From Flavobacteriaceae bacterium (GTDB taxonomy: Bacteria; Bacteroidota; Bacteroidia; Flavobacteriales; Flavobacteriaceae): DNA of 41,153 bases. Below the pieces are notes generated by a model. It was not told where the DNA came from and did no database searches. It saw only the letters and a list, made by a program, of their open reading frames with translations. The translations under genes were made by a program, and so were the position numbers. Below, one piece after another: positions 11,371 through 34,686 of this stretch. How positions within the stretch are numbered: position 1 is the first letter of the stretch; each line of letters opens with the position of its first letter. The stretch spans positions 1 to 41,153 of the forward strand of contig PAAD01000041.1 in NCBI GenBank assembly GCA_002698745.1, in the 5' to 3' direction.

Positions 11371-11384
11371 AAAAAATAAACTGA

Positions 11385-13805
11385 TCAATCTATGGTTAAG
11401 TAAGTTCCCTTAAAATTTTGACCCAAAACCATAACTTTAATTGGTGATTTATTTGAATTACGAATTACTTCAATAGAAGCTTTTCCATTTGCCATTTCAA
11501 TTACTTCACTACCATTGGGAGTTCCCATTGACTTGTAGGCCTTACCACCTGATAAACATTGAAAATATACACGATCCTCATAATCTAAACAACGAAGTCC
11601 TTTATTATCACGAGCCGTTGCAGTAATTAAATAATTCCCGCTTTCTAAAATTTTATATTTTAAACTAAGACTTGTTGCTTTACCGTTTTTCGAGTAACGA
11701 TAATTAACTTTTAAACTATCCTTAACAACTAACCCATTTTTACTTATTCCTCTTGATACAATTATATTTTCACCTTCAACAAAACTAATATCCCAATTTA
11801 AACCAGATGCAGGAAAGGCCTCAATATTACGTTGTTTCAAACCCATACTTTTTCCGTTTAAAAACAACTCAACTTCGGGGCAGTTACTGTAAACACTTAC
11901 TTGGCGTTTTAATCCTTTTGGGCCTTGGCGCTCAGTCCAAGTATGTGATTCAATATACGTAAATGGGGTAGTATCGTTCCAATAGCTTTTAAATACATAA
12001 TAAGCATCTTTTGGATTATTGTTCCTATCAACTAATCCTTTCTGATTTAAATAAGGAATTGGATTTTCTGGACGTAAAGGTGTGCCAAAATCCTTAAAAG
12101 CCCATTGAGCATTTCCAACAAAATTATTATCATTTTCGCTAATTCTTAAATACCAATCAAAAAGATCAACAATATAGTTTTCACTCCAATCACCTAACTT
12201 AGCGATATTTGCTACCTCATTTTGAAAAACATCCTCTTCCCATCCGTCTGGTGGTATTTTACCATCTCCAGTAATTGGGTTTTCAGTATGCCTTCCAACA
12301 TGACTTGACCCCCCATATTCTGCATGTAAAAAGTGTTTATATTCTTTTTTAGACTTTTCTATTGCTTTTTGATAACTTTTATAACTACCAGAATACCATC
12401 CAGACCAAATTGAAGGGGAAAAAACATCAACAATATCTGAACCTTCATAAAATCTTCGAATGGCAGTTTTTCTTGTTTGGTCTAACTCATGTGCATAACT
12501 ATTTAATTCCTTTAAAAATAACTTTGTTTGTTCAATATTTTTTCCGTTCTCAAAGTCAGGAAGCCAAGAAATCTCATTTCCCAATGACCAAATTATGATA
12601 CTTGGATGATTAAAGTTTTGTTGAATTATTTCTCTCAACATTTTTTTTGTATTTTTTTTCCATACATTATTTCCTAATCCACCTCTACACCAAGGCAATT
12701 CATCCCATACCAACAATCCAAGCTCATCACAAGCCCTGTAAATTTCAGGATCTTGAGGATAGTGAGCTAATCTTACAAAGTTTGCTCCCATATCTTTAAT
12801 AAGTTCTATGTCATAACGGTGTTGTTCATTGCTCATAGCAGCGCCTACACCAGCATGTTCTTCGTGTCTATGAGTTCCTCTTAACTTTAATTGTTTTCCG
12901 TTTAAATAAAAAGCACCATAGTCTTTAAACTCAAACCAACGAAACCCAACTTTTTCAACAACCTTATCAATAATAACTCCATTATCAATAAGTTCAATAA
13001 TTAGTTTATACAAGTAGGGGCTTTTAGTGTCCCATAAATTTGGGTTTGTAATAGAATCGAATTGAATAAGTGAATTGTTTTTTGTTACATCAAATATTTT
13101 TGAGATTACTTCACCACCAGTATCATCATTTAGGGTGGCTTTAACACTCAAATCGTTTTTTATTTTTTTTGAAATATCAAAATTAACAGCGAGTTTGGCG
13201 TTTAATTCTGAAACTTCAGGTGTTGTGATTTTTATATTTTTAATATGTTGGGTTGGTAGGTTTAGAAGAAATACATCTCTTGTTATACCGCCGTAAATAA
13301 AAAAATCACTTTTTTGTGAAGGAATAATTTCTGGATCATACCCATTGTTTACATAAACCATTAATTCATTATTTCCTTGTTTTATGTTATTTGTAACATC
13401 AATAGTAAATCCAATGTAGCCTCCAATGTGTCCCCCTACCTTAACGCCATTTAAATAAATTGTAGATGAAATATTGACACCTTCAAAATATAGCTGGTAT
13501 ATAGATCCAGATTTTTTTGAGGATAGTTTCAGATTTTTTTTATACCAACTACCACTTCTTCGATAACCAGGTTGGGTGTCAAGAACGTCCGTTGAATTCC
13601 ACGTATGTGGTAATTGAATAGATTGCCAGTCTTTATCAGCTAATACATCATCAATATTTTTTAAATCCTTCTCAAGGTATTGCCAATCCGTGTTTAAATT
13701 GGTTGTTTCTCTAAATTTATTATTGGAATTGACATCGCAGGAATTAATAAATAAAATAAAATAAAATAAAAAAATGAGCTTAATAAGGGTTAGTAATTTA
13801 TTCAT
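11385..13805 (-). CDS. Glycoside hydrolase family 2 lipoprotein (beta-galactosidase/glucuronidase-like)
   Basis: The 806-residue protein carries a lipoprotein signal with Cys23 (FINSC). It then has the GH2 jelly-roll sugar-binding domain (LPHTWNSTDV; about 55-190), an immunoglobulin-like domain, and a TIM barrel with LRGTHRHEEH. The catalytic acid/base is Glu411 in WSLGNE and the nucleophile is Glu496 in HAEYGG. C-terminal parts resemble DUF4982 (VELFLNGKSMG) and a further Ig-like domain. WSLGNE is more like beta-galactosidases, while NQKG late in the barrel resembles the NxK motif that binds the carboxylate in glucuronidases, so the sugar is uncertain. No acidic run follows Cys23, which suggests a periplasmic anchor. 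It is the last gene of the uronate operon, 64 bases after the aldolase. Confidence 0.85.
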   Translation of the reverse strand: MNKLLTLIKLIFLFYFILFINSCDVNSNNKFRETTNLNTDWQYLEKDLKNIDDVLADKDWQSIQLPHTWNSTDVLDTQPGYRRSGSWYKKNLKLSSKKSGSIYQLYFEGVNISSTIYLNGVKVGGHIGGYIGFTIDVTNNIKQGNNELMVYVNNGYDPEIIPSQKSDFFIYGGITRDVFLLNLPTQHIKNIKITTPEVSELNAKLAVNFDISKKIKNDLSVKATLNDDTGGEVISKIFDVTKNNSLIQFDSITNPNLWDTKSPYLYKLIIELIDNGVIIDKVVEKVGFRWFEFKDYGAFYLNGKQLKLRGTHRHEEHAGVGAAMSNEQHRYDIELIKDMGANFVRLAHYPQDPEIYRACDELGLLVWDELPWCRGGLGNNVWKKNTKKMLREIIQQNFNHPSIIIWSLGNEISWLPDFENGKNIEQTKLFLKELNSYAHELDQTRKTAIRRFYEGSDIVDVFSPSIWSGWYSGSYKSYQKAIEKSKKEYKHFLHAEYGGSSHVGRHTENPITGDGKIPPDGWEEDVFQNEVANIAKLGDWSENYIVDLFDWYLRISENDNNFVGNAQWAFKDFGTPLRPENPIPYLNQKGLVDRNNNPKDAYYVFKSYWNDTTPFTYIESHTWTERQGPKGLKRQVSVYSNCPEVELFLNGKSMGLKQRNIEAFPASGLNWDISFVEGENIIVSRGISKNGLVVKDSLKVNYRYSKNGKATSLSLKYKILESGNYLITATARDNKGLRCLDYEDRVYFQCLSGGKAYKSMGTPNGSEVIEMANGKASIEVIRNSNKSPIKVMVLGQNFKGTYLTID

Positions 13806-13869
13806 AGCACATACGTTAAAAAAGGCTTTACTTTTAGTTTTAGGAACGCTATAATTAGCATAACAAGAG

Positions 13870-14556
13870 CTACTTTGAATTATTATAATTTTTTTTCAGA
13901 AGTCTTATGATATTCAAAGATTTTTTTGTTTGATCTTCAATTTTTTTATAATTATACAATCCCTTATCATTTTTTGACATCAATTTTGAACCCATACCTA
14001 CACAAACAACACCAGCATCAAACCATGATTTAAGGTTATCTTTGGTTGGGCTAACACCTCCTGTCGGCATGATACTTGTCCAAGGTTGAGGAGCTAATAC
14101 ACTTTCAACAAAATTAGGGCCATAAGTACTTCCAGGAAATAATTTTACAATCTCTGCGCCAAGTTCTTCAGCATCAGCAATTTCTGTAAGAGTTCCACAA
14201 CCAGCAGACCAAAGAACTTTTCTGCGATTACACACAATTGCTATATCTCTCCGTAGTACAGGAGTAACAATAAAGTTAGATCCTAATGACATATATAAGC
14301 TTGCCTGTGAAGCATCTGTAATTGAGCCGACTCCTAAAATCATCTCAGGCAATTTATCCATTGCATATTTAGATAGCTCACCGAAAATCTCATGAGCATA
14401 ATCACCTCTAGAAGTAAATTCCATAAGTCTTGCGCCACCCTTATAACATGCGTTAAGTATATTTTTTGCTATTTCTAAATCACTGTGAAAGAACAAGGGA
14501 ACCATACCAGTTTCATTCATCTTCTGTATTACTTGAATTCTTGTAAATCTTGCCAT
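13870..14556 (-). CDS. KDPG aldolase (2-dehydro-3-deoxy-phosphogluconate aldolase)
   Basis: This class I aldolase splits 2-keto-3-deoxy-6-phosphogluconate into pyruvate and glyceraldehyde 3-phosphate, the last step of hexuronate breakdown. The 228-residue protein has the catalytic pair expected for the family: Glu46 in LMEFTSRG and Schiff-base Lys138 in VKLFPG. The phosphate-binding MPTGGVSPT segment follows. Some related enzymes cleave other 2-keto-3-deoxy sugar phosphates, but its place behind uxuA and uxaC supports the KDPG role. It follows DctM by 14 bases in the same operon. No KDG kinase gene accompanies it here. Confidence 0.9.
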   Translation of the reverse strand: MARFTRIQVIQKMNETGMVPLFFHSDLEIAKNILNACYKGGARLMEFTSRGDYAHEIFGELSKYAMDKLPEMILGVGSITDASQASLYMSLGSNFIVTPVLRRDIAIVCNRRKVLWSAGCGTLTEIADAEELGAEIVKLFPGSTYGPNFVESVLAPQPWTSIMPTGGVSPTKDNLKSWFDAGVVCVGMGSKLMSKNDKGLYNYKKIEDQTKKSLNIIRLLKKNYNNSK

Positions 14557-14570
14557 TTTTTTATTTTAAT

Positions 14571-15869
14571 TTATAAATTAAACTGTTTAGGCAACCACAA
14601 ACTTAGATCTGGAAAATAAGTTACTAATAATAAAGCAACAATCATTGCTAAATATAATGGTAATAAAGGTTTTACTACTTTTTCTATTGTTGTATTTGCA
14701 ATTCCAACACCTACAAATAATACTGATCCTACAGGTGGAGTACATAAACCAACACAAAGGTTTAAAATCATTATAATACCAAACTGAATTGGGTCAATTC
14801 CTAATAAATTTGTGACAGGAAGAAAAATTGGTGTAAAGATTAAAACAGCTGGTGTCATATCCATAAATACTCCAACAAAAAGTAATATTATGTTAATGAT
14901 TAATAAAATCACAATTTTATTGTCACTGATACTTAACAGTATGTCACTAATATTTTGTGGAATGTTTTCATAAGACATCACCCAAGACATGCTCATAGAG
15001 GCGCCTACCAATAACATAACTATTGCCGTTGTCACAGATGAATCTAAAAGAATATTTGGAAGGTCTTTAAAACTGATTTCTTTGTACCAAAAACCTAAAA
15101 TAAGTGCGTATAAAACAGCTATGGCAGAAGCCTCTGTTGCAGTAAAAACACCAATAACTATACCGCCAATAATAATTATTAACAACATTAGGCTTGGAAA
15201 TGCATTAATAAAAGTTTTAAATACTTTTTTAGCTGAACTAACTTCACCAACCCTGTATGTATTTTTTTTAGCCCAAACATAGGCGACAAACATCAAAAAT
15301 AATCCAGTTAAAATTCCAGGTATATATCCAGCTAGAAATAATGCAGCAATAGAGACTCCTCCACTGGCTAAAGAATATACAATTAATATATTACTTGGTG
15401 GAATTATTAAACCTGTTGTTGAAGATGTAATATTTACAGCAGCTCCAAACTCTTTTGAATACCCATCCTTTTCCATTTCGGGTCCTAAAATACTTCCTAT
15501 AGCTGAAGCAGATGCCATTGCTGATCCAGCTATAGCTCCCATTAACATTGCAGAAACAATATTTATCAATGCTAAGCCACCGGGAAAAGAGCCTATTACA
15601 GCCCTGGCAAAAGCAATTAACCTAATCGCAATTCCCCCTTTATTCATGAGCTGACCAGCTAAAATAAAAAATGGTATTGCTAGCAAAGCAAAGCTATCAA
15701 GTCCCGAGGCTATCCGCTGGGATATTGTAGTAGTAGCTGGAAATAGTGAAATACTAGCAAGAATTGTGAGTAAAGATGAAATTGCAATAGACCATGCAAT
15801 AGGAACACTTAGTGCTAATAAAAATAAAAAGCTGGTAATTAAAATAATAACAGGGAATAATTCCATCAT
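14571..15869 (-). CDS. dctM: TRAP transporter large permease subunit DctM
   Basis: This is the large membrane subunit of a tripartite ATP-independent periplasmic transporter, which uses the sodium or proton gradient to import organic acids. The 432-residue protein is almost wholly hydrophobic, with 11-12 predicted membrane segments. It has typical family stretches such as LLAIPFFILAGQLMNKGG, SAIGSILGPEM and LNLCVGLCTPPVG. It lies five bases after the small subunit gene. With uxaC and uxuA in the same operon, the cargo is most likely glucuronate or another hexuronate (inference). Confidence 0.93.
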   Translation of the reverse strand: MMELFPVIILITSFLFLLALSVPIAWSIAISSLLTILASISLFPATTTISQRIASGLDSFALLAIPFFILAGQLMNKGGIAIRLIAFARAVIGSFPGGLALINIVSAMLMGAIAGSAMASASAIGSILGPEMEKDGYSKEFGAAVNITSSTTGLIIPPSNILIVYSLASGGVSIAALFLAGYIPGILTGLFLMFVAYVWAKKNTYRVGEVSSAKKVFKTFINAFPSLMLLIIIIGGIVIGVFTATEASAIAVLYALILGFWYKEISFKDLPNILLDSSVTTAIVMLLVGASMSMSWVMSYENIPQNISDILLSISDNKIVILLIINIILLFVGVFMDMTPAVLIFTPIFLPVTNLLGIDPIQFGIIMILNLCVGLCTPPVGSVLFVGVGIANTTIEKVVKPLLPLYLAMIVALLLVTYFPDLSLWLPKQFNL

Positions 15870-15874
15870 ATCGA

Positions 15875-16333
15875 TTAATTATTTAAAATATCTAATAATT
15901 TATAGAAGATAATTATCAATCCCGAAATAGGTATTACTACATAAACCAATGCTAATGGAATTTGTAGTGCAGGTGAAAACTGTTCAAGTGTGTAAGTAAT
16001 ATAAACTAATCTAGAACCTCCGATTACAAAAGTTGTAAAACAGAAAATAATAACTATAATGTTTATAACTGTTTTTAGTTTATCTTGATTTTCTTTATTT
16101 AATTTCGTTGGAAGTATGTCAATGGCTACATGCATTCTTTTCCCCGAAACATATGCTGCGCCTAAAATACTCAACCAAATCATTAGATATCTAGCTAATT
16201 CATCGGTAAATGAACTTGGGCTAATAAGAACAAATCTAGAAAAGACTTGCCAAAGTACATTTAATACCATGACCCCCATAATAAGACTCAAAAAGTAACC
16301 TAATATTCTATTTACTCTTGTTCTAAAATTCAT
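15875..16333 (-). CDS. dctQ: TRAP transporter small permease subunit DctQ
   Basis: The 152-residue protein has four predicted membrane helices, as usual for DctQ, and the conserved FTDELARYLMIWLSILGAAY block near residues 42-61. It joins the large permease in the inner membrane. Its ATG overlaps the stop of the binding-protein gene as ATGA, and five bases separate it from dctM, so all three subunits should be made together. The family is weakly conserved, but the context makes the call safe. Confidence 0.9.
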   Translation of the reverse strand: MNFRTRVNRILGYFLSLIMGVMVLNVLWQVFSRFVLISPSSFTDELARYLMIWLSILGAAYVSGKRMHVAIDILPTKLNKENQDKLKTVINIIVIIFCFTTFVIGGSRLVYITYTLEQFSPALQIPLALVYVVIPISGLIIIFYKLLDILNN

Positions 16334-17310
16334 TCAACAGCTTTAATTTCGTTAATTAACGAAAAAATATTTTTTTGATTGATATAAGACTTATACATAT
16401 CGTTAACTTTTAATTCAAATCCAGATTTATCTGGAATTATAACAGTAACTCCAGATTTTTTAACTTCCTCAAGAGCTTCTTTTTCAGATTTTAACCACAA
16501 TAATCTTTGATGTTTTACAGAATTATCAACTGCTTTCTGCAGCCATTGTTTTTGACTTTTACTCAAATTTTTCCACACATGTAATCCAATTAAAATTACG
16601 TCAGGTACTGATGTATGTTCATCTAGCGTCAAAAACTTACATACTTCGTAATGTCTGGACAAATAAAAACTAGGTGGATTATTTTCAGCACCATCTACAA
16701 CTCCTTGTTGTAAAGAGGTATACAACTCGCCCCAAGAAATAGGAGTGGGTGATCCACCAAGATATTTTACCATATTCATAGCAGTAGCACTTTCCATCAC
16801 TCTAATTTTTAGCCCATGTAAATCACTTGGATTAAAAATCGGCTTTTCTTTAGTGTAAAAACTTCTACTTCCAGAGTCATAGTAACCCAAACCTTTCAAA
16901 CGATATTTTTCACTTTCATTCAATAAATTTTTTCCAATGGGTCCATCCAAAACCTTAAATAAATGTTCTTTACTTCTAAATAAAAAAGGAAGGCCAAATA
17001 TTTTCATGTCAGGTGAAAAGTTTTCCATTACAGCGGCTGAAACTTTTGTCATTCCTAAACTACCTATTTGAAGCAACTCTAAAAGCTGTCTCTCTGTTCC
17101 TAATTGCTGATTTGGGTAAATCTCTAATTTCATTGAGCCTTCAGATATTTTATCTAAATCATGAGCCATGTATTCCATAGCCTTATGCACAGGATGACTT
17201 ACATCCATTCCATGAGCCATTTTAATGATTTTTTTTTGAGATGAGTTTTGACAAGAGGCAAGCCCCAATAAAATTAAAACAAAAAATGAAATATTTATTG
17301 ATTTAAACAT
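16330..17310 (-). CDS. dctP: TRAP transporter substrate-binding lipoprotein DctP
   Basis: This is the extracytoplasmic solute receptor of the TRAP system. It has the DctP fold with GLKIRVMES, whose arginine binds the substrate carboxylate in this family. The ligand-site segment GGSPTPISWGELYTSLQQGVVDGAENN follows. The N-terminus is a lipoprotein signal ending LLGLASC (Cys20 counted from the ATG at 17310), whereas most Gram-negative DctP proteins are soluble periplasmic proteins. An upstream ATG at 17322 adds four residues and overlaps uxaC; the one at 17310 follows the uxaC stop directly and is preferred. Hexuronate is the likely ligand from context. Confidence 0.92.
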   Translation of the reverse strand: MFKSINISFFVLILLGLASCQNSSQKKIIKMAHGMDVSHPVHKAMEYMAHDLDKISEGSMKLEIYPNQQLGTERQLLELLQIGSLGMTKVSAAVMENFSPDMKIFGLPFLFRSKEHLFKVLDGPIGKNLLNESEKYRLKGLGYYDSGSRSFYTKEKPIFNPSDLHGLKIRVMESATAMNMVKYLGGSPTPISWGELYTSLQQGVVDGAENNPPSFYLSRHYEVCKFLTLDEHTSVPDVILIGLHVWKNLSKSQKQWLQKAVDNSVKHQRLLWLKSEKEALEEVKKSGVTVIIPDKSGFELKVNDMYKSYINQKNIFSLINEIKAVE

Positions 17311-17311
17311 T

Positions 17312-18721
17312 TTAAGAGTCATTTAATGAAAAATAATCTAGAGCATTATAATAACTTATATCAGCTAATATTTTGCCTATGAAAGGCATGTCATTTGGCA
17401 ATAATCCTTTTTCTATTTCATCTCCAAATAAATTACAAAGAATTCGTCTAAAATATTCATGCCGCGGAAAAGACAAAAAGCTTCTGGAATCAGTAAGCAT
17501 TCCAATAAAGGAGCTTACCAAACCCATATCAGATAATACGTTTAATTGATTTTCGATCCCGTTTTTTTGATCTAAAAACCACCAAGCAGCACCAAACTGC
17601 ACCTTTCCTTTAACAGAACCATCATTAAAATTTCCAGACATTGTTACAAACACTTCGTTATGAATAGGGTTTGAGTTATAGAGGATAGTTTTGGTTAGTT
17701 GATCCGTTTTGTCTAAATAGTCTAGGAACTTTGATAAACTTAATGCTTGAGGAAATTCGCCAATTGAATCAAATCCTGAATCTCTACCAAGCTTTTTTGT
17801 TAGTCTTGTATTAACAGATCTTATAGGACCTAAATGAAATTGTTGTACCCACCCTAATTTATGGTAAGTTTTAGTTAAATATTTTAGAGTTTCACATTTG
17901 AAATAATAAATTTCATCTAAATTAAGGTTTTTATGATTTTTTAATTTGTTGAAAATATTATCAATGTTATGAGCGCCTGTTTCAAAATATGGAAGATATG
18001 TTAGACCATGATCCGAAATTCGACAACCATTTTTATGAAAATACATAATTCTATTGCTTATTGCATCTAATAGGTCATCAAAAGATTTAATTTGAATATT
18101 AGAAGATTGTTCTAATTTCTGTAAATATTTTGAATAACTTAAGGAGTTTTCAACTGAAAAAAGCTTATCAGCTCTGAATGACATTTTCATTTCGAACGAA
18201 TCATCTTCCTTTAGGAGTTTTTGATGATATCTCAAATCATCAATTGGATCATCTGTCGTACAAATAAATTTTACTTTTTGTTGTGATAATAAACCTTTGG
18301 TAAAATATGAACTTTCACAAAGTTTTTCAGAAGTATTTTTATAAATTTCTTTAGCATTATTTTCATCCAACAAACTATTGATGCCAAAATATCTAAGAAG
18401 CTCCAGATGAGACCAGTGGTAAAGTGGATTACGTACTGTCTTATTAACAACTGCTGCCCATTTTATGAATTTTTCTACATCTGATGCATTCCCAGTAATA
18501 TATTTTTCGTCAATACCCAAAGTTCGCATGGCTCTCCACTTATAGTGATCATCCTCAAGCCATAATTCAGTTATATTTTTGAATTTCCTATTTAAGGCTA
18601 TGTCTTTTGGCGGTAAATGATTGTGATAATCAATTATAGGTAGATCTTTTACAAAATCATGATACAATTTTGAAGCTGTTTTACTATTTAACAAAAAATC
18701 TTCTGTAATAAATGTTTTCAT
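17312..18721 (-). CDS. uxaC: Glucuronate (uronate) isomerase UxaC
   Basis: UxaC converts D-glucuronate to D-fructuronate, or D-galacturonate to D-tagaturonate, in the cytoplasm. The 469-residue protein is of standard length. It shows the metal-binding DYHNHLPP (His33, His35) near the N-terminus, the [11 protein letters not shown]-like [13 protein letters not shown] stretch, [14 protein letters not shown], and a C-terminal block with [19 protein letters not shown]. The start ATG overlaps the uxuA stop by four bases. With uxuA and a mannonate-type reductase alongside, the glucuronate branch is favoured over galacturonate. Confidence 0.96.
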
Positions 18722-19902
18722 GAAAATTCTACGCTTTTTAGAAGACCGAATTTTAATCCTCGTAGTTCTGCTAGTCCTTTTAATCTTCCAATACCTGAAT
18801 ATCCAGGGTTTGAGGTTTTTTGCAGATCATCCAGCATTTGATGGCCATGATCTGGTCTCATTGGCATTCTTGTATCTATTCTTCCATTTAATTTTCTAAT
18901 TTTTTGTTCTTTTAAAAGAGCCTTTAAAACTCCATACATGTCCACATCGCCCTCTAAATGATTTGCCTCATAAAAATTCCCTTTATTGTCTCTTTTTGTA
19001 CTTCTTAAATGAACAAAATGAATTCTATCTCCCAAACGTTCTACCATACCAACTAAATCATTATCACGCCTTACACCAAAAGATCCAGAACAAAAGGTTA
19101 GACCATTATTATTACTATCTACAGCATTATAAATATCTATTATATCCTGTTCTGTACTAACAATTCTTGGTAACCCCAAAATAGGATATGGTGGGTCATC
19201 TGGGTGAATACTCATAAGAATTCCAGATTTCTCAGCATATGGAATTATTTGGATTAAAAAATAAAATAAATTTTCTTTTAATTTCTTTGAATCAATATTT
19301 TTATATGTACTTAAAATTCTATTAAATTCTGCTAATGTGTAGCCTTCTTCTGCTCCAGGCAGACCAGCAATTATATTTCTAACAAGCTTTTCTTGATTCT
19401 TGAATGTTGTTTTTTTTAAATATTCTTTTGCTAAAGTCTTTTGATTATCGTCATAATCCTCTTCTGCCCCAGGGCGCTTTAATAAAAGTAATTCAAATGC
19501 TGCAAAAGCACTAGACTGAAACCTTAGAGCTCTTGAACCGTCTTCAAGTTCATAATTTAAATCAGTTCTAGTCCAATCAAGTACAGGCATAAAATTATAA
19601 CAAACTATATCTATACCACATTTACCAAGGTTTAATAATGTGGTCTTATAATTTTCAATATACATTTTATAATTACCTGACTTAGTTTTTATATCCTCAT
19701 GGACAGGGACACTCTCAACAACAGACCAGGTTAAACCTGCTTGTTCAATTGTTTGTTTTCGCTTATTAATATCTTCTATACTCCAAATTTCTCCATTAGG
19801 AATATGATGTAAAGCAGTAACAACACCAGTTGCACCAGCCTGCTTTATATCCGATAGTTTTACAGGGTCTTTCGGCCCATACCAACGCCAAGTCTCTTCC
19901 AT
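18718..19902 (-). CDS. uxuA: Mannonate dehydratase UxuA
   Basis: UxuA dehydrates D-mannonate to 2-keto-3-deoxygluconate, using a divalent metal. The 394-residue protein begins METTWRWYGP-like (here [13 protein letters not shown]), a hallmark of the family. Other markers are [37 protein letters not shown] with metal-site histidine and aspartate, and the C-terminal [12 protein letters not shown]. It follows the SDR gene by 43 bases and overlaps uxaC. Because mannonate arises only from fructuronate, its presence points to glucuronate as the sugar handled. Confidence 0.97.
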
Positions 19903-19945
19903 TAGTAAATCAATAGTTAATATAAATTTTCATTAAGAATTCAAA

Positions 19946-23463: not shown

Positions 23464-23469
23464 ATATTA

Positions 23470-25287: not shown

Positions 25288-25291
25288 TTTA

Positions 25292-26056: not shown

Positions 26057-26074
26057 TTCAATATGGTTTAAAAT

Positions 26075-27133
26075 CTATAAAAAATTATCCTTTGAAATTG
26101 AGTTGTAAATTTCTTTGTTTATCACTAGTCTTGTGTTTTTTATAATATGCTTAATTAACATATCAAACTCAGAGTTTTGATAATAATTCAAAACTTGTTT
26201 TTTAACTTTTTCATATGGGTAGTATTTTTTATTTGATAAATAATCAAGTCTTATTATGAAGGTTCCCTCCTGGGCTTTTAACACTTTAAATTCTCCGATA
26301 TTTAATTTTAATAGACTTTCTCTAATTATCTTATCAGGGTTATCTTCTCCGAAAATTGGGATAGAATCATGAAAAACTATTTTTTTATACTCGCCAAGGG
26401 GATATTTTTTTTCTAAGGAATTATTCAGGCTGAATCCTTTTTTCAAATAATTTTTAACTTCTTGAATTCTTTTTACTGCTAGATTATTGGGTAATTTACT
26501 GTGGTTAAATCCAAAAACAACTCCTTCAATCTTTTCATTATATGAAAATTGTTTTGATTTTATTATTTCATAATATTCTTTTAAAAGCTTTCCGTCAATC
26601 TTAAATTGAGTTTTCGCAAGCTTTTCCTTTAAACGTAGTTTAATATTACTGATTAAGTAGTTATGGTAACTAAACATGTCAATAGTAATAGCTCCATAAA
26701 TTATTTGACCATTACTATTTTTTTGTGTTCTTGATTTATTATAATCCTGCCATAGGATTTTGAAATTTTCAAAATTAAAATGATTAATAATATTATTCTC
26801 TTTTGCTAATTTTAAAATAGCTCGTGTTTCCATGAGCTGATTTTCCGTTTTTGTCTTGATATAATCTAATGGGGTAATACCATCAATTGTAGTTTCCCAA
26901 AATTTATTTGAATTTTCTAAGCCAAAATTTAAATAAAAATGATTGTAAGTAAATGCTATATTTTTTTTTAGATGGAATAAGTATTGTTCCCATTTTATTT
27001 CATGGCCATCGATCAAGAGTGTTACACTTTTATCATCTATTTTATTTTTTTTTGTAAAACCTGACTCACTGTTGCAAGAATTAAAAAAAAATAAAATTCC
27101 CAATAAAATAAGAGAATGTTTTAACACTTTCAT
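26075..27133 (-). CDS. SurA/PpiC-like peptidyl-prolyl isomerase-type lipoprotein
   Basis: The 352-residue lipoprotein (Cys20 in FFNSC) has a long helical N-terminal part (about 35-190) like the SurA chaperone domain. A parvulin-like part follows (about 195-315), with FSYNEKIEGVVFGF, LKKGFSLNNSLEKKYPLGEY and LKLNIGEFKVLKAQEGTFIIRL. The parvulin core is divergent, so isomerase activity is uncertain and a chaperone-only role is possible. It sits between the beta-helix and esterase genes, with 18 bases on each side, inside the sus operon. A dedicated foldase for exported island proteins is a reasonable inference. No general sur-type housekeeping neighbours are present. Confidence 0.65.
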   Translation of the reverse strand: MKVLKHSLILLGILFFFNSCNSESGFTKKNKIDDKSVTLLIDGHEIKWEQYLFHLKKNIAFTYNHFYLNFGLENSNKFWETTIDGITPLDYIKTKTENQLMETRAILKLAKENNIINHFNFENFKILWQDYNKSRTQKNSNGQIIYGAITIDMFSYHNYLISNIKLRLKEKLAKTQFKIDGKLLKEYYEIIKSKQFSYNEKIEGVVFGFNHSKLPNNLAVKRIQEVKNYLKKGFSLNNSLEKKYPLGEYKKIVFHDSIPIFGEDNPDKIIRESLLKLNIGEFKVLKAQEGTFIIRLDYLSNKKYYPYEKVKKQVLNYYQNSEFDMLIKHIIKNTRLVINKEIYNSISKDNFL

Positions 27134-27151
27134 ATAAAATTAAGAAACAAT

Positions 27152-28699
27152 TTAATTAGGGTACTCAAAAGCACCTATATCAGGATTGTCATTATAAAGA
27201 GGATTACCCCAAAAGTCTTTACCTCCATTATTGTCAATTATTTTGCCTATTCCTATTAGAGGAGAATTTTGTTTTAATTGGTATCCTGTTAAAATATTGG
27301 GGTACTGACTCCACTCAATGTCGCTAATTCCTTCATTTGGATTTACAAAAAGAGGATTTGAAGTTGTGTAATTTTCACCTTTTGGACTAATATTATAAAA
27401 ACAATTATTACTAAAATTAACCATACTTCCGATCTGACCCCAATTTGATCCAGGCTCTTCAAAGTAAAATATATTATTATAAAAATCAGTATTAAATGCA
27501 GTTCTTGCAGCTCCTCCTGAACCAAACACACTCAGTTTTATTCCTGCTTTAATAAAGTGAGTATTATTATAAATTAATGCTTTTGTCATTCCTGTTCTAT
27601 TATTAAATCCAAAAAAATAAATTGCAGTGTCATCATTCTCAGATATATTATATCTAATTACAACATTTTCATTTACAGCTCTTTTCATAATTCCAAAACC
27701 CCATTGATTATCATGGCTGTAATTATATTGTATTAAAGTGTTTTTAGAGTTATAATCTGCATCAAATCCACCCCTGTCCATATCACCAGGGCCTTTATTT
27801 CCATAAGCTTCATTAAACTGTATTTTAACACCAATAGTATTAAAACAAAACACACTGTGACCAGTATCATACCTACTTGAGTTAATTAGTGTATTATGTT
27901 CAACAATTGCTCCATCACTTGCCCTTATAATCATATTATTTCGTCCAGTATTACTTATAATATTTCCTCTTATAATAATATTTAGTGATGGATACCTTGA
28001 ATTTGAAGTGATTGAGGCATAAGATGATTGATTAGCAATTCCTAAACCACCAACATTATCAATAATATTATTTTCAATTCTTAAATCATTGTATCTAGAG
28101 GGATCATTTCCAAAAGCTGTCATATAAATCCCACCTGTAGTTTTGGTGGCCACCTTTCCATTAACATCATGTATATAGCAGTCTCTTATGTAAATGTGTT
28201 TAGCTTCAATTCCACCAGCTTCATCCAACTGTCCTAAAATGGCCCAAAGGTCCCCTTGATAGTTAGAATTCCCGTTTGTATTTGTTAACTCAAGATTATT
28301 TATTTCCCAAAATTGAATATTTTTAAGCAAAAGTGTAGCACCACTATTAGTTGTAGCACCACCACCATTAATTATTGGCTTACCACCCTCTCCATATTGA
28401 TCCAATATAATAGGGCTACCGTCATTTCCGGAACCTTTTAATTTCAATTGGCCATTCCACACCTCACCTGATTTAAAGAATAATTTATCACCAGGCGAAA
28501 ATGTAAAGGATGAAACTTTATACAAAGTTTTCCATGCAGATTCTGGGCTATTTCCTGAATTTGAGTCACTTCCACCAGAGGCATCAACATAATATTGGTT
28601 TTTAATTTCAATATTTGTATCTATAAAGTCACTAGATGATTCAGTACCACAAGCAAATAACATCAGAAGGAAAAAATTCATTAGAATAATGTTTTTCAT
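27152..28699 (-). CDS. Right-handed parallel beta-helix lipoprotein, candidate polysaccharide-degrading enzyme
   Basis: The 515-residue lipoprotein (Cys17 in LFACG) starts with YYVDASGGSDSNSGNSPESAW, a common opening of secreted beta-helix carbohydrate-active proteins. It continues as repeated short strands rich in N-x-I/V and NN turns (about 120-430), including DRGGFDADYNSKNTLIQYNYSHDN. The end GNPLYNDNPDIGAFEY is also typical. The fold is shared by several polysaccharide lyase families, GH28-like hydrolases and C5-epimerases. I cannot assign a family or catalytic residues. It is the only candidate endo-acting enzyme in the operon. It follows a 98-base gap after the binding lipoprotein gene. 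Confidence 0.75.
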   Translation of the reverse strand: MKNIILMNFFLLMLFACGTESSSDFIDTNIEIKNQYYVDASGGSDSNSGNSPESAWKTLYKVSSFTFSPGDKLFFKSGEVWNGQLKLKGSGNDGSPIILDQYGEGGKPIINGGGATTNSGATLLLKNIQFWEINNLELTNTNGNSNYQGDLWAILGQLDEAGGIEAKHIYIRDCYIHDVNGKVATKTTGGIYMTAFGNDPSRYNDLRIENNIIDNVGGLGIANQSSYASITSNSRYPSLNIIIRGNIISNTGRNNMIIRASDGAIVEHNTLINSSRYDTGHSVFCFNTIGVKIQFNEAYGNKGPGDMDRGGFDADYNSKNTLIQYNYSHDNQWGFGIMKRAVNENVVIRYNISENDDTAIYFFGFNNRTGMTKALIYNNTHFIKAGIKLSVFGSGGAARTAFNTDFYNNIFYFEEPGSNWGQIGSMVNFSNNCFYNISPKGENYTTSNPLFVNPNEGISDIEWSQYPNILTGYQLKQNSPLIGIGKIIDNNGGKDFWGNPLYNDNPDIGAFEYPN

Positions 28700-28753
28700 A
28701 TTTATTTTTATGGGTGTTATTAAATTTTAAAAAATAAAACTTCAACTACAATT

Positions 28754-28776
28754 TAAATAAACGTAGTAAATAAACG
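28754..28776. repeat. Tandem 10-base direct repeat in the gap before the beta-helix gene
   Basis: TAAATAAACG occurs at 28754-28763 and again at 28767-28776, separated by TAG. It lies in the only sizeable gap (98 bases) inside the susC operon. It might be a binding site or mark an internal promoter or processing site. In AT-rich DNA chance cannot be excluded. Confidence 0.35.
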
Positions 28777-28797
28777 CTTCTAAAAATTAATAAACAA

Positions 28798-29748
28798 TTA
28801 TTTAGCTATAACTGAAAGATCTTCGAGCGAAATAGTTCTACCTGTACTATTGTAAGAATATTGAAAAGTCATCTGAAAATTACCATCAGTATCTGCTATA
28901 CCAGTTCTTATTTTATTATGATATTTGGTTTTATCATTATTACCCCAATTCTCATAAGCATCTTCAGTGTCGCCTGTTATAGTAACATCTAGTGATCTCT
29001 CCGAGGTACCTCCTGGACGGATCCAATATGAAACCTCATAATTTCTATCTGCTTCAAGACCAATTAAATTTACAGTTACACTTGATGTCTCTCCAACTAT
29101 CCGGAGTGCATTACCACAACCTGAATACTGTAAGGCTGAACCATCGGCACATTTTGGAAATTGCGCATTTACCCGAATCCTACTTTCGTTATTACCAGCC
29201 TTGTTTAAAACATAAGTTGCCATAACTGATGAGTGTAATTCATGGGAACCCTCCAAAATAGCGGTTGTAGCTGGTGTGTTATGATCTAAACCAAATTCCA
29301 TATCATTAAAGTAAATTTGAGTTTCAACAGGCAATGGCTCAGGTTCAACCACATTAGCAATAACATTAATTGTTTTTGAAATATCTCCGGAACTTAATTC
29401 AATAGTTCCATTAACTCCGACTTGAGCCTGATCTCTGCTAGGAGAAAAAATTATTTCAGCAGAGTTATTAATATTAGCTGCTGGGAAAAGAGTTTTGGTT
29501 ATAGACATTCTGTCGCCAGATACATTTAATGTTATTGGTAGATTTAGGCCTGAACCTTTAACATTAAAAGATTTGGTTCCAGCTGAACCGGCCGGTACGT
29601 CTCCAAAGTCTATGGTTTCCCCAGAAACTATACTAATTTCAGGTGTTATTATATTATCATTATCATCACAAGAAAAAGTCATTAAAATGAATGGTAACAT
29701 CATGAATGCTTTTGCGTAATTACTTTTTTTAATTATTAACATTTTCAT
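28798..29748 (-). CDS. Putative surface glycan-binding lipoprotein with Ig-like N-terminal domain
   Basis: The 316-residue lipoprotein has Cys27 (TFSC) followed by the acidic stretch DDND, like Bacteroidota surface-export signals. The first half (about 40-130) reads like an ASPM-SPD-2-Hydin Ig-like domain (DFGDVPAGSAGTKSFNVKG). The second half (about 140-316) is beta-rich with YEVSYWIRPGG and resembles carbohydrate-binding modules. No catalytic motif is seen. It comes five bases after susD, where SusE-like surface glycan-binding proteins are usually encoded. The start may be ATG 29748 or ATG 29742. Confidence 0.75.
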   Translation of the reverse strand: MKMLIIKKSNYAKAFMMLPFILMTFSCDDNDNIITPEISIVSGETIDFGDVPAGSAGTKSFNVKGSGLNLPITLNVSGDRMSITKTLFPAANINNSAEIIFSPSRDQAQVGVNGTIELSSGDISKTINVIANVVEPEPLPVETQIYFNDMEFGLDHNTPATTAILEGSHELHSSVMATYVLNKAGNNESRIRVNAQFPKCADGSALQYSGCGNALRIVGETSSVTVNLIGLEADRNYEVSYWIRPGGTSERSLDVTITGDTEDAYENWGNNDKTKYHNKIRTGIADTDGNFQMTFQYSYNSTGRTISLEDLSVIAK

Positions 29749-29753
29749 AAATT

Positions 29754-31457
29754 TTAATATCCAGGGTTATTTTGTATTGGGTTATCCAAATTGGAATCAA
29801 TAAATTCTTGTGGTATGGGATAAAGCTTATCTCTTTCAATAATTTTACCAGAAGCATTTATGTTGTATAAATTTGTTCTTTCTATCCATTTATTAGTTCT
29901 TAAAAGAGTATAACGTCTCTGTTCCTCAGAAAATAATTCACGAGCGCGTTCATCTAAAATAAAATCAATTGATATATCGCTGGCACTAATTAAAGGTGCA
30001 TTTGCTCTGGAGCGCAAATCATTGATGTATTGAGCAGCACTCTGATCATCACCACTCAAATGATATGCTTCAGACAATAATAAATATGTGTCTGCAAGTC
30101 TTAAATAAACCTGATCGTTATATGATCTTGAAAGTCTATCTGAAGCAGGCTCATTGCTGTCAATTACATTATTTGTATCAAAAGCCCACTTCATAGTAAA
30201 AGGTCTAAAACGATCCCCAAGAGGGTCAATAGGGCTAAAATCCAGTGTGATTACGTCTCCAATATTTCCAGCACTCGATGGGTCATTTGCAATAACAGTG
30301 AAAAAAGTTCGCCATGAATATATTCCACCTCTGTCATCATTTGTCTTTAAAAGTCCATAAGCATCTCTTTCTCCATACAAATCAAGCATAAATTTAGTGG
30401 CTGATAAACGAGTATTCCCTCTACCACCACGGGCAACAGTTACCTCTAAACCTTTGGCGCCACCACTCGAACTACTGTATTCACTGGTTAACCAGCGTCT
30501 CATAATATTGTGTCCCTCACCACCTTCAACCTCAAATGCATGCTGGAATACCCATAAAGCTTCATTGTTACCTTCACTAGGATTCGAATTTCCATCTAAA
30601 AACATATCGGTGTAGGGAGTACCATTATTGGAGGCGTTAACTCCGTACCTAAAATTAATTAATGATTTAGGCCCATTAATAGCAGCTAGCGCAGTTGTAA
30701 TGGCTCTGTCGTAATCCTGCTCAATAATTAAAAGTTCAGTTAAGTAATGTTGGGCAACTGCCCTTACAATTTTACCATTAGAAGTGTGATTTTCAGGCAA
30801 ATACTGTGCAGCATATTCTAAATCCTCTTTCATCTTTTCTCTAATTTGATCAACAGGTGTACGATCCCAATCTAATCGAACATTTTCACCTAGTGACTCT
30901 TCCACATTTAATGGAACATCACCAAATAAAAAAGTTAAATGTCTGTAACACCAGGCTCTTAAGGTTCGAGCCTCACCAATGATCCTTCTCAAAGAGTCTT
31001 CGTCAATACCCAGATCAGTACCTTGACTTTCAGCTCTATTGATTATTGTATTAGCACCATTAATCATTCTATACAACCAATTCCAAGTCCTAGTAAAATA
31101 TGTTTGTGAACTAGACCCAATAACATCATCACCCCAGTCATTTAAAAATCTCTCGGATCCCCATGGTCTATTTCCATATGCAATGTCTGTGCCTCCAAAC
31201 ATCATTGATGCAGTCAAATTATTTGAAGTACCTATTGATGTACTACTAGTTGGAACACCTGCTCGTTCAGCTCTTGCTAAGGCATACAGAGAATTTAATC
31301 CAGCATCAAATCCTTGTTCGTCTACATATAAATTGTCAGGTGCTATAAAATCACGTGTTTCTTGATCCAAAAAATCATCGTTGCAAGAAAAGAATGTAAA
31401 TAACATCAGCAACAAGATTATATTTCCCTTTTTACTAAAATTTAAGTAGTTTTCCAT
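29754..31457 (-). CDS. RagB/SusD-family outer-membrane glycan-binding lipoprotein
   Basis: SusD proteins bind glycan at the cell surface and form the lid of the SusC channel. The 567-residue protein has Cys25 (TFFSC) followed by NDDFLDQE, a typical SusD start and surface-export signal. It has TPR-like helices and the family ending PIPQEFIDSNLDNPIQNNPGY. The open frame extends six codons upstream to a GTG at 31475, but the ATG at 31457 gives the better signal peptide. It follows susC by 26 bases. The ligand cannot be read directly; the neighbouring genes suggest a glucuronate-containing glycan. Confidence 0.95.
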   Translation of the reverse strand: MENYLNFSKKGNIILLLMLFTFFSCNDDFLDQETRDFIAPDNLYVDEQGFDAGLNSLYALARAERAGVPTSSTSIGTSNNLTASMMFGGTDIAYGNRPWGSERFLNDWGDDVIGSSSQTYFTRTWNWLYRMINGANTIINRAESQGTDLGIDEDSLRRIIGEARTLRAWCYRHLTFLFGDVPLNVEESLGENVRLDWDRTPVDQIREKMKEDLEYAAQYLPENHTSNGKIVRAVAQHYLTELLIIEQDYDRAITTALAAINGPKSLINFRYGVNASNNGTPYTDMFLDGNSNPSEGNNEALWVFQHAFEVEGGEGHNIMRRWLTSEYSSSSGGAKGLEVTVARGGRGNTRLSATKFMLDLYGERDAYGLLKTNDDRGGIYSWRTFFTVIANDPSSAGNIGDVITLDFSPIDPLGDRFRPFTMKWAFDTNNVIDSNEPASDRLSRSYNDQVYLRLADTYLLLSEAYHLSGDDQSAAQYINDLRSRANAPLISASDISIDFILDERARELFSEEQRRYTLLRTNKWIERTNLYNINASGKIIERDKLYPIPQEFIDSNLDNPIQNNPGY

Positions 31458-31483
31458 TTTTAAAAATTTAATCACTTTTTATA

Positions 31484-34414
31484 TTATAATTTAATATTCA
31501 TTCCAAAAACAAATTCTTTTTGAAGTGGTGCCCCGAACTGACTATCTAACTCAGGATCAAGTCCACTCCAATTTGTAATTGTAAATAAATTCCGAGCGGT
31601 TAAATACACTTTTAAGTCAATATTATTTAGTTTGAATAAACTGTCATCTAACTTATATGACAATGTAATATCTTTAATTCTTACAAAATCTGCACTTTCA
31701 TAAAATTGTACACCATGAACGTTTGCTCGCACAATACCATCATTTCTATAAAAGGTATTAATGGGATTTTCAACACTCCAAAATTCTTGTACAAACGTAT
31801 TCCTTTGTACTCCGCCGAAAACATTAGTGCTTCTAGTTGTATTTCGTTTTGTAACCCCTTCTACACCATGGATAAATACATCCAATGAAAAGTTTTTGTA
31901 CTTAAAGGTATTTGTTAAACCCCACGTAAATTTTGGATCCCTTTGACCCAGAAAAACTCTATCATCACTTGATATTGTTAAATCACCATTTGCATCCAGA
32001 ACTTTAACATCCCCTGGAATTGCGTCTGGTTGGGCTGAACCAGAAGTATCTTGTCCAGTTTGCCAAATGCCATCAAACTTTAAACCATAATTAATCCTAA
32101 TTGGTTGGCCAATAAACAAACTATTTGCTACATCATCTTCATCTCCGCCTTGAAGAGAAACAATTTCATTTTTGTTATATGAAAAGTTACTGTTAGCAGA
32201 CCATTTAAAATCTTTAGTATCCATAATAAATCCACTAATTGCAGCCTCTACTCCAAAGTTTTTTGTGTTAGCAACATTATCAATAATTCTTCTTATTCCC
32301 TGTACTGATGGAATAAGTTTGTTTAGTAAAAGGTCTGAGCTTTCAGACTGATAAGCATCTAATGATATTTGAAATCTATTATTCAACAATCCCATGTCTA
32401 TTCCTATGTTATAGGTAGCTGTAGTTTCCCATGTTAAATTGTTGTTTCCTAAAACTAGTGGAATATAACCTGGGGCTGTTACGTCACCATCTAAATATGA
32501 AAGGTCATCTAACCTTGCTAAATTAGCAACAGAGCTAATATCTTGATTTCCACTTTCACCATAGGTGAGCCGAAATCTTAAGTTATTTACAACATTATTT
32601 TCAGGAAAAAAAGATTCGTTACTGACATTCCAACTAAAACCAGCAGAAGGGAAAACTCCATATTTGTTATTATCACCAAAACCAGTGTATCCATCTCGCC
32701 TCAGAGTAAAGGTAGCTAAATATTTGTCATCAAAGTTATAATTTAATCTACCCATTTGTGAAATAAGGGTTTCTTGATCAAAAGATTGGCTAACCTCTTT
32801 GGGAAGTGTAGCAAGATTCATTTGAAAGTATGTTAAAACATCACTAGAAAAGCCTTTCCCAACAGTTTCATGTTTTTCGTAAGTTATTTTTTGTGCACTG
32901 TATAAACCAGTGAAATTTATATTGTGCTTCCCAAAAGTTTTTTTATAATTTAGTATATGTTCAATTAAGAAATTTTCATTTACTATATTTTCTACAATCG
33001 CTTCACCATTTACAAGATTTCCCCTTGCTGTATCTCTACCCCAGTAGGTCCTTTCATTTCTGTTTGAATATTCCACTCCAGTGTTTAACTTATATGATAA
33101 TCCTGGAATAAATGGAGTTTTAATCTCAATATAATTAGCCGTAAATATCTTATTATTTATATTACTATTGTCTGCCAAAGTAGGTGCAAGCGGATTAGTA
33201 AAATATTGTTCTTCAGGCCAAGGGTAAAGGGTCAAACTACCATCAGGATTATAAGCATTCGTTAAAGGGTTAGTAAAATATGCACCAGCAGCATTTGAAC
33301 TAAAAGATGGAGATAATCCTGACCTGTCTATATAAGATAATTGAGTATTTGTTCCAAATTTAATATTCTCATTAATGTTAAAAGAAACATTTGTTCTCAA
33401 AGTTGCTCTTTGAAATTTATCATTTATAGCAATTCCTTGAACATCTTGATATCCTAATGAAATATAATAATTTGCATTTTTACTTGCCCCTGAAACAGAA
33501 ATATTGTGCTCTTGCTTCTGTGCTGATCTTGTCGCAAGATCAAGCCAATTTGTTGTTTTACCTGCCATCAAGTTATCTATCTCAGTCTGTGTTAGCTCCC
33601 CAGGTTCCCTAACCTCTTTGAATCCAGCAAATCCTTGTCCCTGATAAACCTCTGGAATATGTGCAATTTCATTGACCCCACTGTATCCTGAATAAGAAAT
33701 TATTGGTTTTGAACTAACTCCTTTTTTGGTTTCAATAAGAATTACGCCGTTCGAACCACGAGAACCATAAATTGCCGTAGAAGATGCATCCTTAAGAATA
33801 GTAATTGACTTTATATCTGAAGGATTAATATCAGAAATACTTCCCGAATAGGGAATTCCGTCATAAACAACCAATGGAGAGTTTGAAGCACTAATAGAGT
33901 TTCTACCTCTAATAAGTATACCAACATTATTTCCTTCAGCATTAGCAGTATTTGTATTTATTGTAATTCCTGGTAACGAACCTTGAAGTGCTTGACGAAA
34001 GTTAGTGTTTGTTTTTTCTTCTAATCTTTCAGGTGAAATCACAGAAACTGAACCAGTCAAATCATTTTTACGTTGGGTTCCATAACCAACTAAAACTACC
34101 TCATCTAGCTCAGAAACATCAGGCACCAGAGCAACATTAATTGATAAATTAGAACCTATTAAAATTTCTTGACTTGTAAAACCAATATAGCTAAACACCA
34201 AAATATCACTAGTCTTAGCAGAGATACTGAAATTTCCATCAAAGTCTGATGTTACACCTCTTGAAGCTCCTTTGACAATTATATTGGCACCAACTATAAA
34301 TTCGCCAGTTTCAGAATCAGTTATTTTACCACTAATTGTTGTTTGTTGAGCAATTAAAACTTGTAAACCAAGTATAATTAATGATGAAATTAATAAACAA
34401 AATTTAGTCTTCAT
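31484..34414 (-). CDS. SusC/RagA-family TonB-dependent outer-membrane transporter
   Basis: This is the outer-membrane channel that imports oligosaccharides, powered by TonB. The protein is about 976 residues. It has a signal peptide (cleavage near LIAQQ), a carboxypeptidase-like regulatory domain (about 25-110), then the SusC plug with VVLVGYGTQRKNDLTGSVS and TILKDASSTAIYGSRGSNGV. A large beta-barrel ends in FVFGMNIKL with the expected aromatic-rich tail. An ATG two codons upstream (34420) is less likely than that at 34414. It heads a seven-gene operon. The leader contains the operator at 34442-34455. Confidence 0.96.
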   Translation of the reverse strand: MKTKFCLLISSLIILGLQVLIAQQTTISGKITDSETGEFIVGANIIVKGASRGVTSDFDGNFSISAKTSDILVFSYIGFTSQEILIGSNLSINVALVPDVSELDEVVLVGYGTQRKNDLTGSVSVISPERLEEKTNTNFRQALQGSLPGITINTNTANAEGNNVGILIRGRNSISASNSPLVVYDGIPYSGSISDINPSDIKSITILKDASSTAIYGSRGSNGVILIETKKGVSSKPIISYSGYSGVNEIAHIPEVYQGQGFAGFKEVREPGELTQTEIDNLMAGKTTNWLDLATRSAQKQEHNISVSGASKNANYYISLGYQDVQGIAINDKFQRATLRTNVSFNINENIKFGTNTQLSYIDRSGLSPSFSSNAAGAYFTNPLTNAYNPDGSLTLYPWPEEQYFTNPLAPTLADNSNINNKIFTANYIEIKTPFIPGLSYKLNTGVEYSNRNERTYWGRDTARGNLVNGEAIVENIVNENFLIEHILNYKKTFGKHNINFTGLYSAQKITYEKHETVGKGFSSDVLTYFQMNLATLPKEVSQSFDQETLISQMGRLNYNFDDKYLATFTLRRDGYTGFGDNNKYGVFPSAGFSWNVSNESFFPENNVVNNLRFRLTYGESGNQDISSVANLARLDDLSYLDGDVTAPGYIPLVLGNNNLTWETTATYNIGIDMGLLNNRFQISLDAYQSESSDLLLNKLIPSVQGIRRIIDNVANTKNFGVEAAISGFIMDTKDFKWSANSNFSYNKNEIVSLQGGDEDDVANSLFIGQPIRINYGLKFDGIWQTGQDTSGSAQPDAIPGDVKVLDANGDLTISSDDRVFLGQRDPKFTWGLTNTFKYKNFSLDVFIHGVEGVTKRNTTRSTNVFGGVQRNTFVQEFWSVENPINTFYRNDGIVRANVHGVQFYESADFVRIKDITLSYKLDDSLFKLNNIDLKVYLTARNLFTITNWSGLDPELDSQFGAPLQKEFVFGMNIKL

Positions 34415-34441
34415 ATACATTATGTTAGTTTTTTTAGTAAG

Positions 34442-34455
34442 CGTGCGCGTACACG
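34442..34455 (-). promoter_or_regulatory. LacI-type operator in the susC leader
   Basis: Read on the minus strand the bases are CGTGTACGCGCACG, a near-perfect inverted repeat that matches the site at 20831-20844 in 12 of 14 positions. It lies 27 bases upstream of the preferred susC ATG and about 45 bases downstream of the -7 box, where a bound repressor would block elongation or initiation. Confidence 0.7.
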
Positions 34456-34500
34456 TTATTTAAAAATAGTTAATTAATTTTTTGTTACCATGTGCTTACC

Positions 34501-34508
34501 CAAATATA
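34501..34508 (-). promoter_or_regulatory. Candidate -7 box of the susC operon
   Basis: Read on the minus strand this is TATATTTG, an exact TAnnTTTG match. No TTTG is seen 19 bases upstream, so the promoter may need an activator or be weak. Transcription would start near 34495, giving a leader of about 80 bases that includes the operator. Confidence 0.45.
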
Positions 34509-34590
34509 GAAATCTTTTTTTAAATGACTTAAATCTTATTTTTTGTTAAATTTTAAACCTATTAATTATTAAAATAGCATGATCATCATT

Positions 34591-34621
34591 TTTGTCAAAT
34601 AAACTATAAAATGTATATTTG
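34591..34621 (+). promoter_or_regulatory. Promoter of rplS
   Basis: TTTG at 34591-34594 and TATATTTG at 34614-34621 are separated by 19 bases, a perfect Bacteroidota promoter. The leader to the ATG at 34687 is about 60 bases. It gives rplS independence from trmD. Confidence 0.7.
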
Positions 34622-34686
34622 CAACTGCTTTTAAACCACTGGCGAGGTACGTGAATGTTTCTAAGCTAAAATCAAATTATAAAAAC

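Follow-up and report, generated by a model that had tools for sequence, protein, structure and literature searches.

Polysaccharide-utilization loci (PULs) move on conjugative elements in the Bacteroidota, and the locus described here, which lies between the housekeeping genes trmD and rplS of a Flavobacteriaceae bacterium, resembles other PULs of that phylum in having a SusC/SusD pair, glycoside hydrolases, an esterase, and a regulator in one place. It is unlike the usual PULs in its position between trmD and rplS and in having full uronate catabolism and a tripartite ATP-independent periplasmic (TRAP) transporter predicted in the same block; uronate/TRAP blocks occur in other Flavobacteriaceae too. 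A second parallel concerns its mode of entry. The parts of Oliveira et al. 2017 (PMC5635113) considered here report that many hotspots without mobile elements have raised recombination in flanking core genes. The present locus is like those hotspots in that cargo sits between core genes, no mobile element is seen, the content varies among relatives, and a recombination signal is found in the flank; it differs from what those parts describe in that theirs are within-species statistics and this is one traced event whose donor falls outside the genus as sampled, in that the breakpoint lies inside a gene, and in that the signal is on one side only. The locus occupies contig PAAD01000041.1 of GenBank assembly GCA_002698745.1, one whole contig of 41,153 bp (the window in what follows). 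The island probably arrived within a single imported tract of about 24.6 kb through homologous recombination in the core genes at its flanks, and in that sense it adds a case to a process already described, in which content is exchanged by recombination in the core genes on either side. A literature search judged by titles found no published title on an island at the trmD-rplS site in flavobacteria.

The source genome is a 1.49 Mb draft in 65 contigs, 77% complete with 2.68% contamination. It was compared with a family sample with a single genome per genus for 148 other genera (149 genomes with the source), in which TrmD was found in 144, the rplS product L19 in 145, and both in 143, and with a genus sample of 17 genomes including the source, the same 14 of which carry both TrmD and L19 (in one, G164, TrmD is broken off at a contig end). 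The sequence-only reading that preceded this analysis held that trmD and rplS, neighbors in many bacteria, are separated here by a 23-kb island, and the family sample agrees: in 129 of the 143 other-genus genomes that carry the pair, the two genes keep the same order and strand and lie within 2.4 kb of each other (median 182 bp). Of the remaining 14, 5 have the genes on one contig at a long distance or in opposite orientation, and 9 have them on different contigs. Within the genus both genes are on one contig in 8 of 14 genomes and on different contigs in the other 6. Six of the 13 congeners (G150, G151, G152, G153, G155, and G159) have gaps of 514–1678 bp, including the nearest relatives, G152 (867 bp), G153 (824 bp), and G159 (1678 bp), which have no island; G162 has a gap of 8,502 bp with other cargo. 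The island was found beside trmD or rplS in none of the 13 congeners, where in six, with the genes on different contigs, only the stretches next to each gene are visible. Because 129/143 other-genus genomes and the nearest relatives keep the pair close, trmD-rplS adjacency is ancestral and the island is new; the possibility raised beforehand, that the two genes were ancestrally apart in this family, is rejected on the same count, and the other outcome named as refuting, one island shared at this place by all close relatives, was not seen.

The left end of the imported tract falls within a degQ-like protease gene (bp 9275–10660, plus strand), which is a mosaic, native to about bp 10113 (codon about 280) and imported beyond, as judged by MaxChi, identity, and third-position G+C. 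MaxChi places the break at bp 10112–10114 (chi-square 85, 0/2000 permutations), between the protease domain (to residue 259) and the first PDZ domain (from residue 281) in Pfam terms. In 120-nt windows up to bp 10,114 the source is 77–89% identical in nucleotides to G152 and G153, which are 80–93% identical to each other; in windows from 10,115 to 10,654 the source drops to 58–69% and G152 and G153 are still 74–85% identical. In trmD windows the corresponding values are 64–78% and 78–91%. Third-position G+C falls at the same break, from 0.30–0.43 to 0.20–0.23. Informative sites tell the same story when counted as those uniting the source with its near relatives, those private to the source, and those uniting it with G162, in that order (G162 served as outgroup, a placement backed by core-gene trees). 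The counts in degQ are 99:27:25 before bp 10,115 and 24:72:36 after it; they are 24:62:34 in trmD, 24:11:6 in rplS, and 80:42:19 in icd. All of the flank genes compared except TrmD group the source with G152, G153, and G159 by amino-acid identity, and trees of the left core genes and of the right genes join it to its near relatives with support of 100/100 and 100/99.7, respectively. The tree of the degQ end has no outgroup and so cannot tell inside from outside the genus.

The trmD gene that follows (bp 10702–11370, plus strand) is apparently a foreign allele. The source TrmD is 79.3% identical to those of G152, G153, and G159, which are 92.3% identical to one another and 87.8% identical to more distant species; against the congeners as a group the source stands at 81.5%, and the congeners stand at 86.3–89.6% among themselves. 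Its mean identity to 50 other-genus genomes from 47 genera, by contrast, is 73.9%, where the 12 congeners with full-length TrmD have 73.7–76.4% (the 50 are the best matches to the source TrmD, a mild bias in its favor). Because it is thus far from its own genus only and at a normal distance from other genera, TrmD is not fast-evolving. In TrmD trees the source lies outside the other 13 genus members, with support of 98/81 with 51 outgroup rows and 90/74 with 14. The part of degQ beyond about bp 10,113 and the whole of trmD thus appear to derive from a lineage that does not belong to the sampled genus; trmD probably arrived along with the island.

The same data bear on the idea that the degQ end and trmD are native and have evolved fast, or have shifted toward low G+C next to the island. 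Approximately unbiased (AU) tests on these short proteins are mostly not significant, as this idea would have it: four tests that hold the source with its near relatives for TrmD and the degQ end give p of 0.138, 0.313, 0.058, and 0.146 and do not reject that placement, and a fifth, which uses a wider group with G162, gives p of 0.039. The tree tests alone, then, do not prove import; the argument for import depends on the break, the patterns of informative sites, and the rate check. These three sit badly with accelerated evolution, since the identity of TrmD to other genera is normal, the step is sharp and lies within one gene, and the sites shared with G162 rise too, alongside the private ones (near-relative against G162 sites are 99:25 before the break and 48:70 beyond it; Fisher p 3.8e-10). 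We consider a native but fast-changing or drifting segment very improbable.

On the right, rplS (bp 34684–35040, plus strand; Pfam Ribosomal_L19) shows the near-relative site pattern from about bp 34,692 on and icd shows it throughout; rplS and icd are native. Between susC (bp 34,420) and about bp 34,692 only the L19-Flavobacteria leader of rplS (bp 34633–34660, plus strand; Rfam RF03130, 32.1 bits vs a cut-off of 31.5) aligns well. The right junction is placed in the bracket 34421–34690, from the native site pattern that starts at about bp 34692. The short stretch 34605–34660 has five private sites, one shared with the relatives, and two shared with G162, a faint hint that the leader is part of the import, with the crossover at the start of rplS.

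The sequence-only reading proposed entry by homologous recombination between shared flanks in preference to a mobile element, and on the left this is supported by the mosaic degQ and the foreign trmD. Its shared-flank model holds as far as the recombination signal in the left flank goes, with homology on the right conjectured, and is refined in one respect, as the event probably replaced native sequence and did not place the cargo between untouched native flanks. In the simplest account, which follows the model of Oliveira et al., a donor stretch comprising the degQ end, trmD, the PUL, and perhaps the rplS leader would have replaced the native degQ end, trmD, and short gap, with crossovers in the conserved flanks and the left one inside degQ at about bp 10,113. 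A single event would have brought both trmD and the island, the donor would already have carried the island beside trmD, and the right crossover may have used homologous sequence in the L19 leader or in the first part of rplS. The DNA may have been taken up by transformation or in some similar way. Of the 17 incomplete genomes of the genus, 12 have a ComEC match and 11 a DprA match, and the G156 match to ComEC (G156:C65:29035-29772) has four in-frame stop codons, so that gene may be broken. Two Riemerella species are reported to be naturally competent, and Flavobacterium johnsoniae, under the same conditions, is reported not to be.

A number of observations weigh against import by recombination. 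Neither ComEC nor DprA was found in the source genome, which is incomplete. The right crossover is only bracketed, from bp 34,420 to about 34,690, and MaxChi gives no significant break there (8.4, 127/2000). Of the MaxChi controls on the left, that with G152 as the focal genome gives 9.1 (34/500), and that with G153 gives 14.9 (1/500), also a low count. The 90/74 support in the TrmD tree is weak, the outgroup choice carries the bias given above, and the four AU tests leave the native placement unrejected. DNA searches of 397 family genomes found no close donor for the degQ end and trmD (the best-scoring match outside the genus is 73% identical) or for the uxaC-phoD block (best-scoring 71%). 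Finally, the same mosaic would be seen if the contig were a chimera, in which a metagenome assembler crossed to a second organism within degQ and returned ahead of rplS; the island would then belong to another bacterium. The fragmentation, incompleteness, and contamination of the draft (see above) are in keeping with such an error, as is the difference in tetranucleotide usage between the island and its immediate flanks (correlation 0.38); the island nevertheless correlates at 0.70 with the sampled remainder of the genome, within the range of that genome's own contigs (0.47–0.80). A chimera also requires the assembler to have switched twice, at matching positions to the left and right, the assembly has a single trmD, and the exact runs that degQ has in common with G152 and G153, which are only stand-ins for the native sequence, are at most 35 nt and offer an assembler little to cross on. 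An assembly chimera is accordingly judged unlikely, and recombination in the flanking core genes remains the favored explanation.

Per kb, G+C is 0.24–0.39 in the island and 0.37–0.45 in the flanks, except for one flank window of 0.29 (bp 4001–5000); a 310,846-bp sample from 19 other contigs of the source genome has a G+C of 0.384. More informative than low G+C as such is that the step starts ahead of trmD: at third positions, G+C stands at 0.29 for degQ and 0.24 for trmD against 0.36–0.50 and 0.36–0.53, respectively, in the congeners. Across the degQ end, trmD, and the PUL it is 0.14–0.24, which fits a single donor genome, but PULs elsewhere in the source genome are likewise low. The low G+C of the island is by itself weak evidence, since a different contig of this genome, one that carries two SusD genes, shows low values too (0.33–0.35).

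Carriage by an integrative element or transposon, the genes and ends of which were later lost, was also considered, as the traces of such ends can vanish over time. No integrase or transposase was found by Pfam among the 17 island open reading frames (ORFs), no tRNA or tmRNA gene was found in the 41,153-bp window, and no direct repeat of at least 20 nt joins the island ends (searched across bp 9000–36500); these searches bear out the absence of integrase, transposase, tRNA, and long flanking repeats previously noted by inspection. In addition, insertion of an element would leave degQ and trmD native, and they are not. A mobile element with its traces erased is thus very unlikely, and entry by recombination in the flanking genes is preferred over it.

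The island itself fills the interval from the 3′-end of trmD (bp 11370) to the start of rplS (bp 34684) with 17 ORFs of at least 120 amino acids, 15 on the minus strand and two on the plus strand. A cut-off of 90 amino acids adds two ORFs that were not counted, 14989–15282 (antisense in dctM) and 31039–31365 (antisense in susD). The sequence-only reading had sixteen carbohydrate genes here; the island is there, with 17 ORFs, and the LacI-family regulator, the LnbY-like protein, the PhoD-like protein, and the lipoprotein-like ORF are not sugar enzymes. Judged from its SusC/SusD pair and carbohydrate-active enzymes, the island is a PUL, predicted to be of the glucuronate type. Beginning beside trmD, its minus-strand genes encode a putative beta-glucuronidase-like glycoside hydrolase family 2 (GH2) enzyme (bp 11385–13805; Pfam GH2, PDB 6d1p 1.2e-181 and 6d7j 1.8e-177), a 2-keto-3-deoxy-6-phosphogluconate (KDPG)/2-keto-4-hydroxyglutarate (KHG) aldolase (bp 13870–14556; PRK07114 above cut-off), the TRAP transporter proteins dctM, dctQ, and dctP (bp 14571–17322; Pfam), glucuronate isomerase uxaC (bp 17312–18721; PRK02925 above cut-off), mannonate dehydratase uxuA (bp 18718–19902; TIGR00695 above cut-off), and a D-mannonate oxidoreductase of the short-chain dehydrogenase/reductase type (bp 19946–20773; PRK08277 above cut-off). 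The two plus-strand genes, for the LacI-family regulator (bp 20928–22010; Pfam) and a PhoD-like phosphatase family protein (bp 21952–23463; Pfam), follow. The remaining genes, again on the minus strand, encode a second GH2 enzyme, beta-uronidase-like (bp 23470–25287; PDB 6d1n 1.6e-212), a SASA carbohydrate esterase (bp 25292–26056; Pfam), the LnbY-like protein and GH136-type enzyme discussed below, a lipoprotein-like ORF with no Pfam or NCBIfam match (bp 28798–29748), SusD (bp 29754–31475; Pfam SusD_RagB), and SusC (bp 31484–34420; TIGR04056 above cut-off). In PDB searches both GH2 proteins are closest to structures of the beta-galactosidase/beta-glucuronidase group.

From these families, SusC and SusD would bind and import a uronic-acid-containing glycan, which the two GH2 proteins, the GH136-type enzyme, and the esterase would cut. 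The uronates released would be taken up by the TRAP transporter and converted by UxaC, the mannonate oxidoreductase, UxuA, and the KDPG aldolase. There is no 2-keto-3-deoxygluconate kinase gene among the island genes, and the rest of the genome was not searched for one. A promoter and terminator scan next to trmD gave scores no better than those of shuffled sequence.

The assignment of a beta-helix enzyme (bp 27152–28699, minus strand) to GH136, made from sequence comparison, is the least expected part of the cargo. A PDB search links the protein to five different sequences with solved structures (among them 7v6m, E 1.7e-41), and four of the five carry the name lacto-N-biosidase; against the NCBIfam LnbX model it scores 53 bits and does not reach the cut-off of 2500. 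In a hand alignment by residue letters its Asp308 and Asp315 fall opposite D568 and D575, the acid/base and nucleophile of the Eubacterium ramulus GH136 enzyme, which the parts of that report considered here give as its catalytic residues (PMC7335108). The same parts state that GH136 lacto-N-biosidase activity requires a partner subunit (PMC7335108), and here the adjoining gene (bp 26075–27133, minus strand) encodes a putative LnbY-like partner, with a match to the LnbY model NF047894 over residues 38–189 (9.6e-12; 45 bits vs a curated cut-off of 400). A PDB search with this LnbY-like protein gave no match at E up to 1. The pair is thus like GH136 LnbX/LnbY, as described in those parts of PMC7335108, in its predicted beta-helix, its two candidate catalytic aspartates seven residues apart, and its adjacent LnbY-like gene; it is unlike them in that the island enzyme is shorter, lies in a flavobacterial uronate PUL, and falls under the curated cut-offs. 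Structure predictions made with no alignment had a mean predicted local distance difference test score (pLDDT) of 34 and 33 and were not used. GH136-type matches at E 1e-20 or better are present in 20 of the 397 family genomes, the source included, and the best two other homologs, 71% and 66% identical and in two other genera, both have an LnbY-like gene within a few kb. A GH136-type enzyme and an LnbY-like partner gene would thereby be placed in a flavobacterial sugar-use locus.

If import by recombination is correct, the window holds a trace at near base level of a large sugar-use locus reaching a small-genome flavobacterium with no mobile element, comprising a breakpoint in one gene, a foreign housekeeping gene alongside the cargo, and native genes on the far side. 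On this account there should be a sister lineage having the same trmD allele next to the island, and a general search for odd core-gene alleles adjoining islands suggests itself. Somewhat speculatively, the trmD-rplS interval of this genus might be an exchange slot, in which conserved flanks act as recombination handles, metabolic loci cross between genera with no mobile element, and an essential tRNA-modifying enzyme is replaced as a hitchhiker; we rate this wider idea as possible and somewhat doubtful.

Other genomes of the genus have varied content at this site. The G162 interval (8.5 kb) encodes OmpA and F5/8-type C domain proteins, and the G159 gap encodes a small protein with a Por secretion C-terminal sorting domain; similar small ORFs are visible by eye in G150 and G155. 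G156 has genes for a UDP-sugar dehydrogenase, a NusG-like protein, and a family 4 glycosyltransferase beside trmD and for a fucosidase and a sulfatase beside rplS, and G158 has an OmpA protein gene beside rplS and repeat proteins at its contig ends; in these two genomes the sides are on different contigs, and a single interval is an assumption. In G157 and G163 (L067, L068, L075, L076) trmD and rplS each have other housekeeping-like neighbors, arranged alike in the two genomes (judged by eye in G157 and by ORF sizes and order in G163), which suggests a rearrangement at the site. In G153 (L063) MaxChi gives a signal of its own near the trmD 3′-end, perhaps another exchange at the same place.

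The same island was sought elsewhere in the genus with uxaC, and related uronate loci exist there, not this island. Four of the 17 genomes are positive, including the source; the other three uxaC homologs are 53–59% identical and on other contigs. TRAP genes adjoin uxaC at the three places examined (two in G162 and one in G153), and a homolog of one island GH2 protein (GH2a, 70%) is nearby in G153. Among the best 80 of 587 relatives of uxuA in named genomes, identity reaches 72%, with partial synteny only.

The left flank of the window runs ligA, prmC, ribD, dnaA, phosphatase, rsmI, mltG, dapF, degQ, and trmD, and the right flank runs rplS, icd, a TonB receptor gene, and a DUF4249-like gene; degQ, rplS, and icd were assigned by Pfam and the others named from their translations. 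Four more distant congeners (L060, L069, L072, L077) have an ORF of 179–184 amino acids between degQ and trmD, which in L072 resembles, by eye, an ORF6N/KilA-type DNA-binding protein. An AT-rich gap directly ahead of dnaA (bp 4173–4738), in the flank window of low G+C mentioned above, is a possible replication origin 6 kb from the island.

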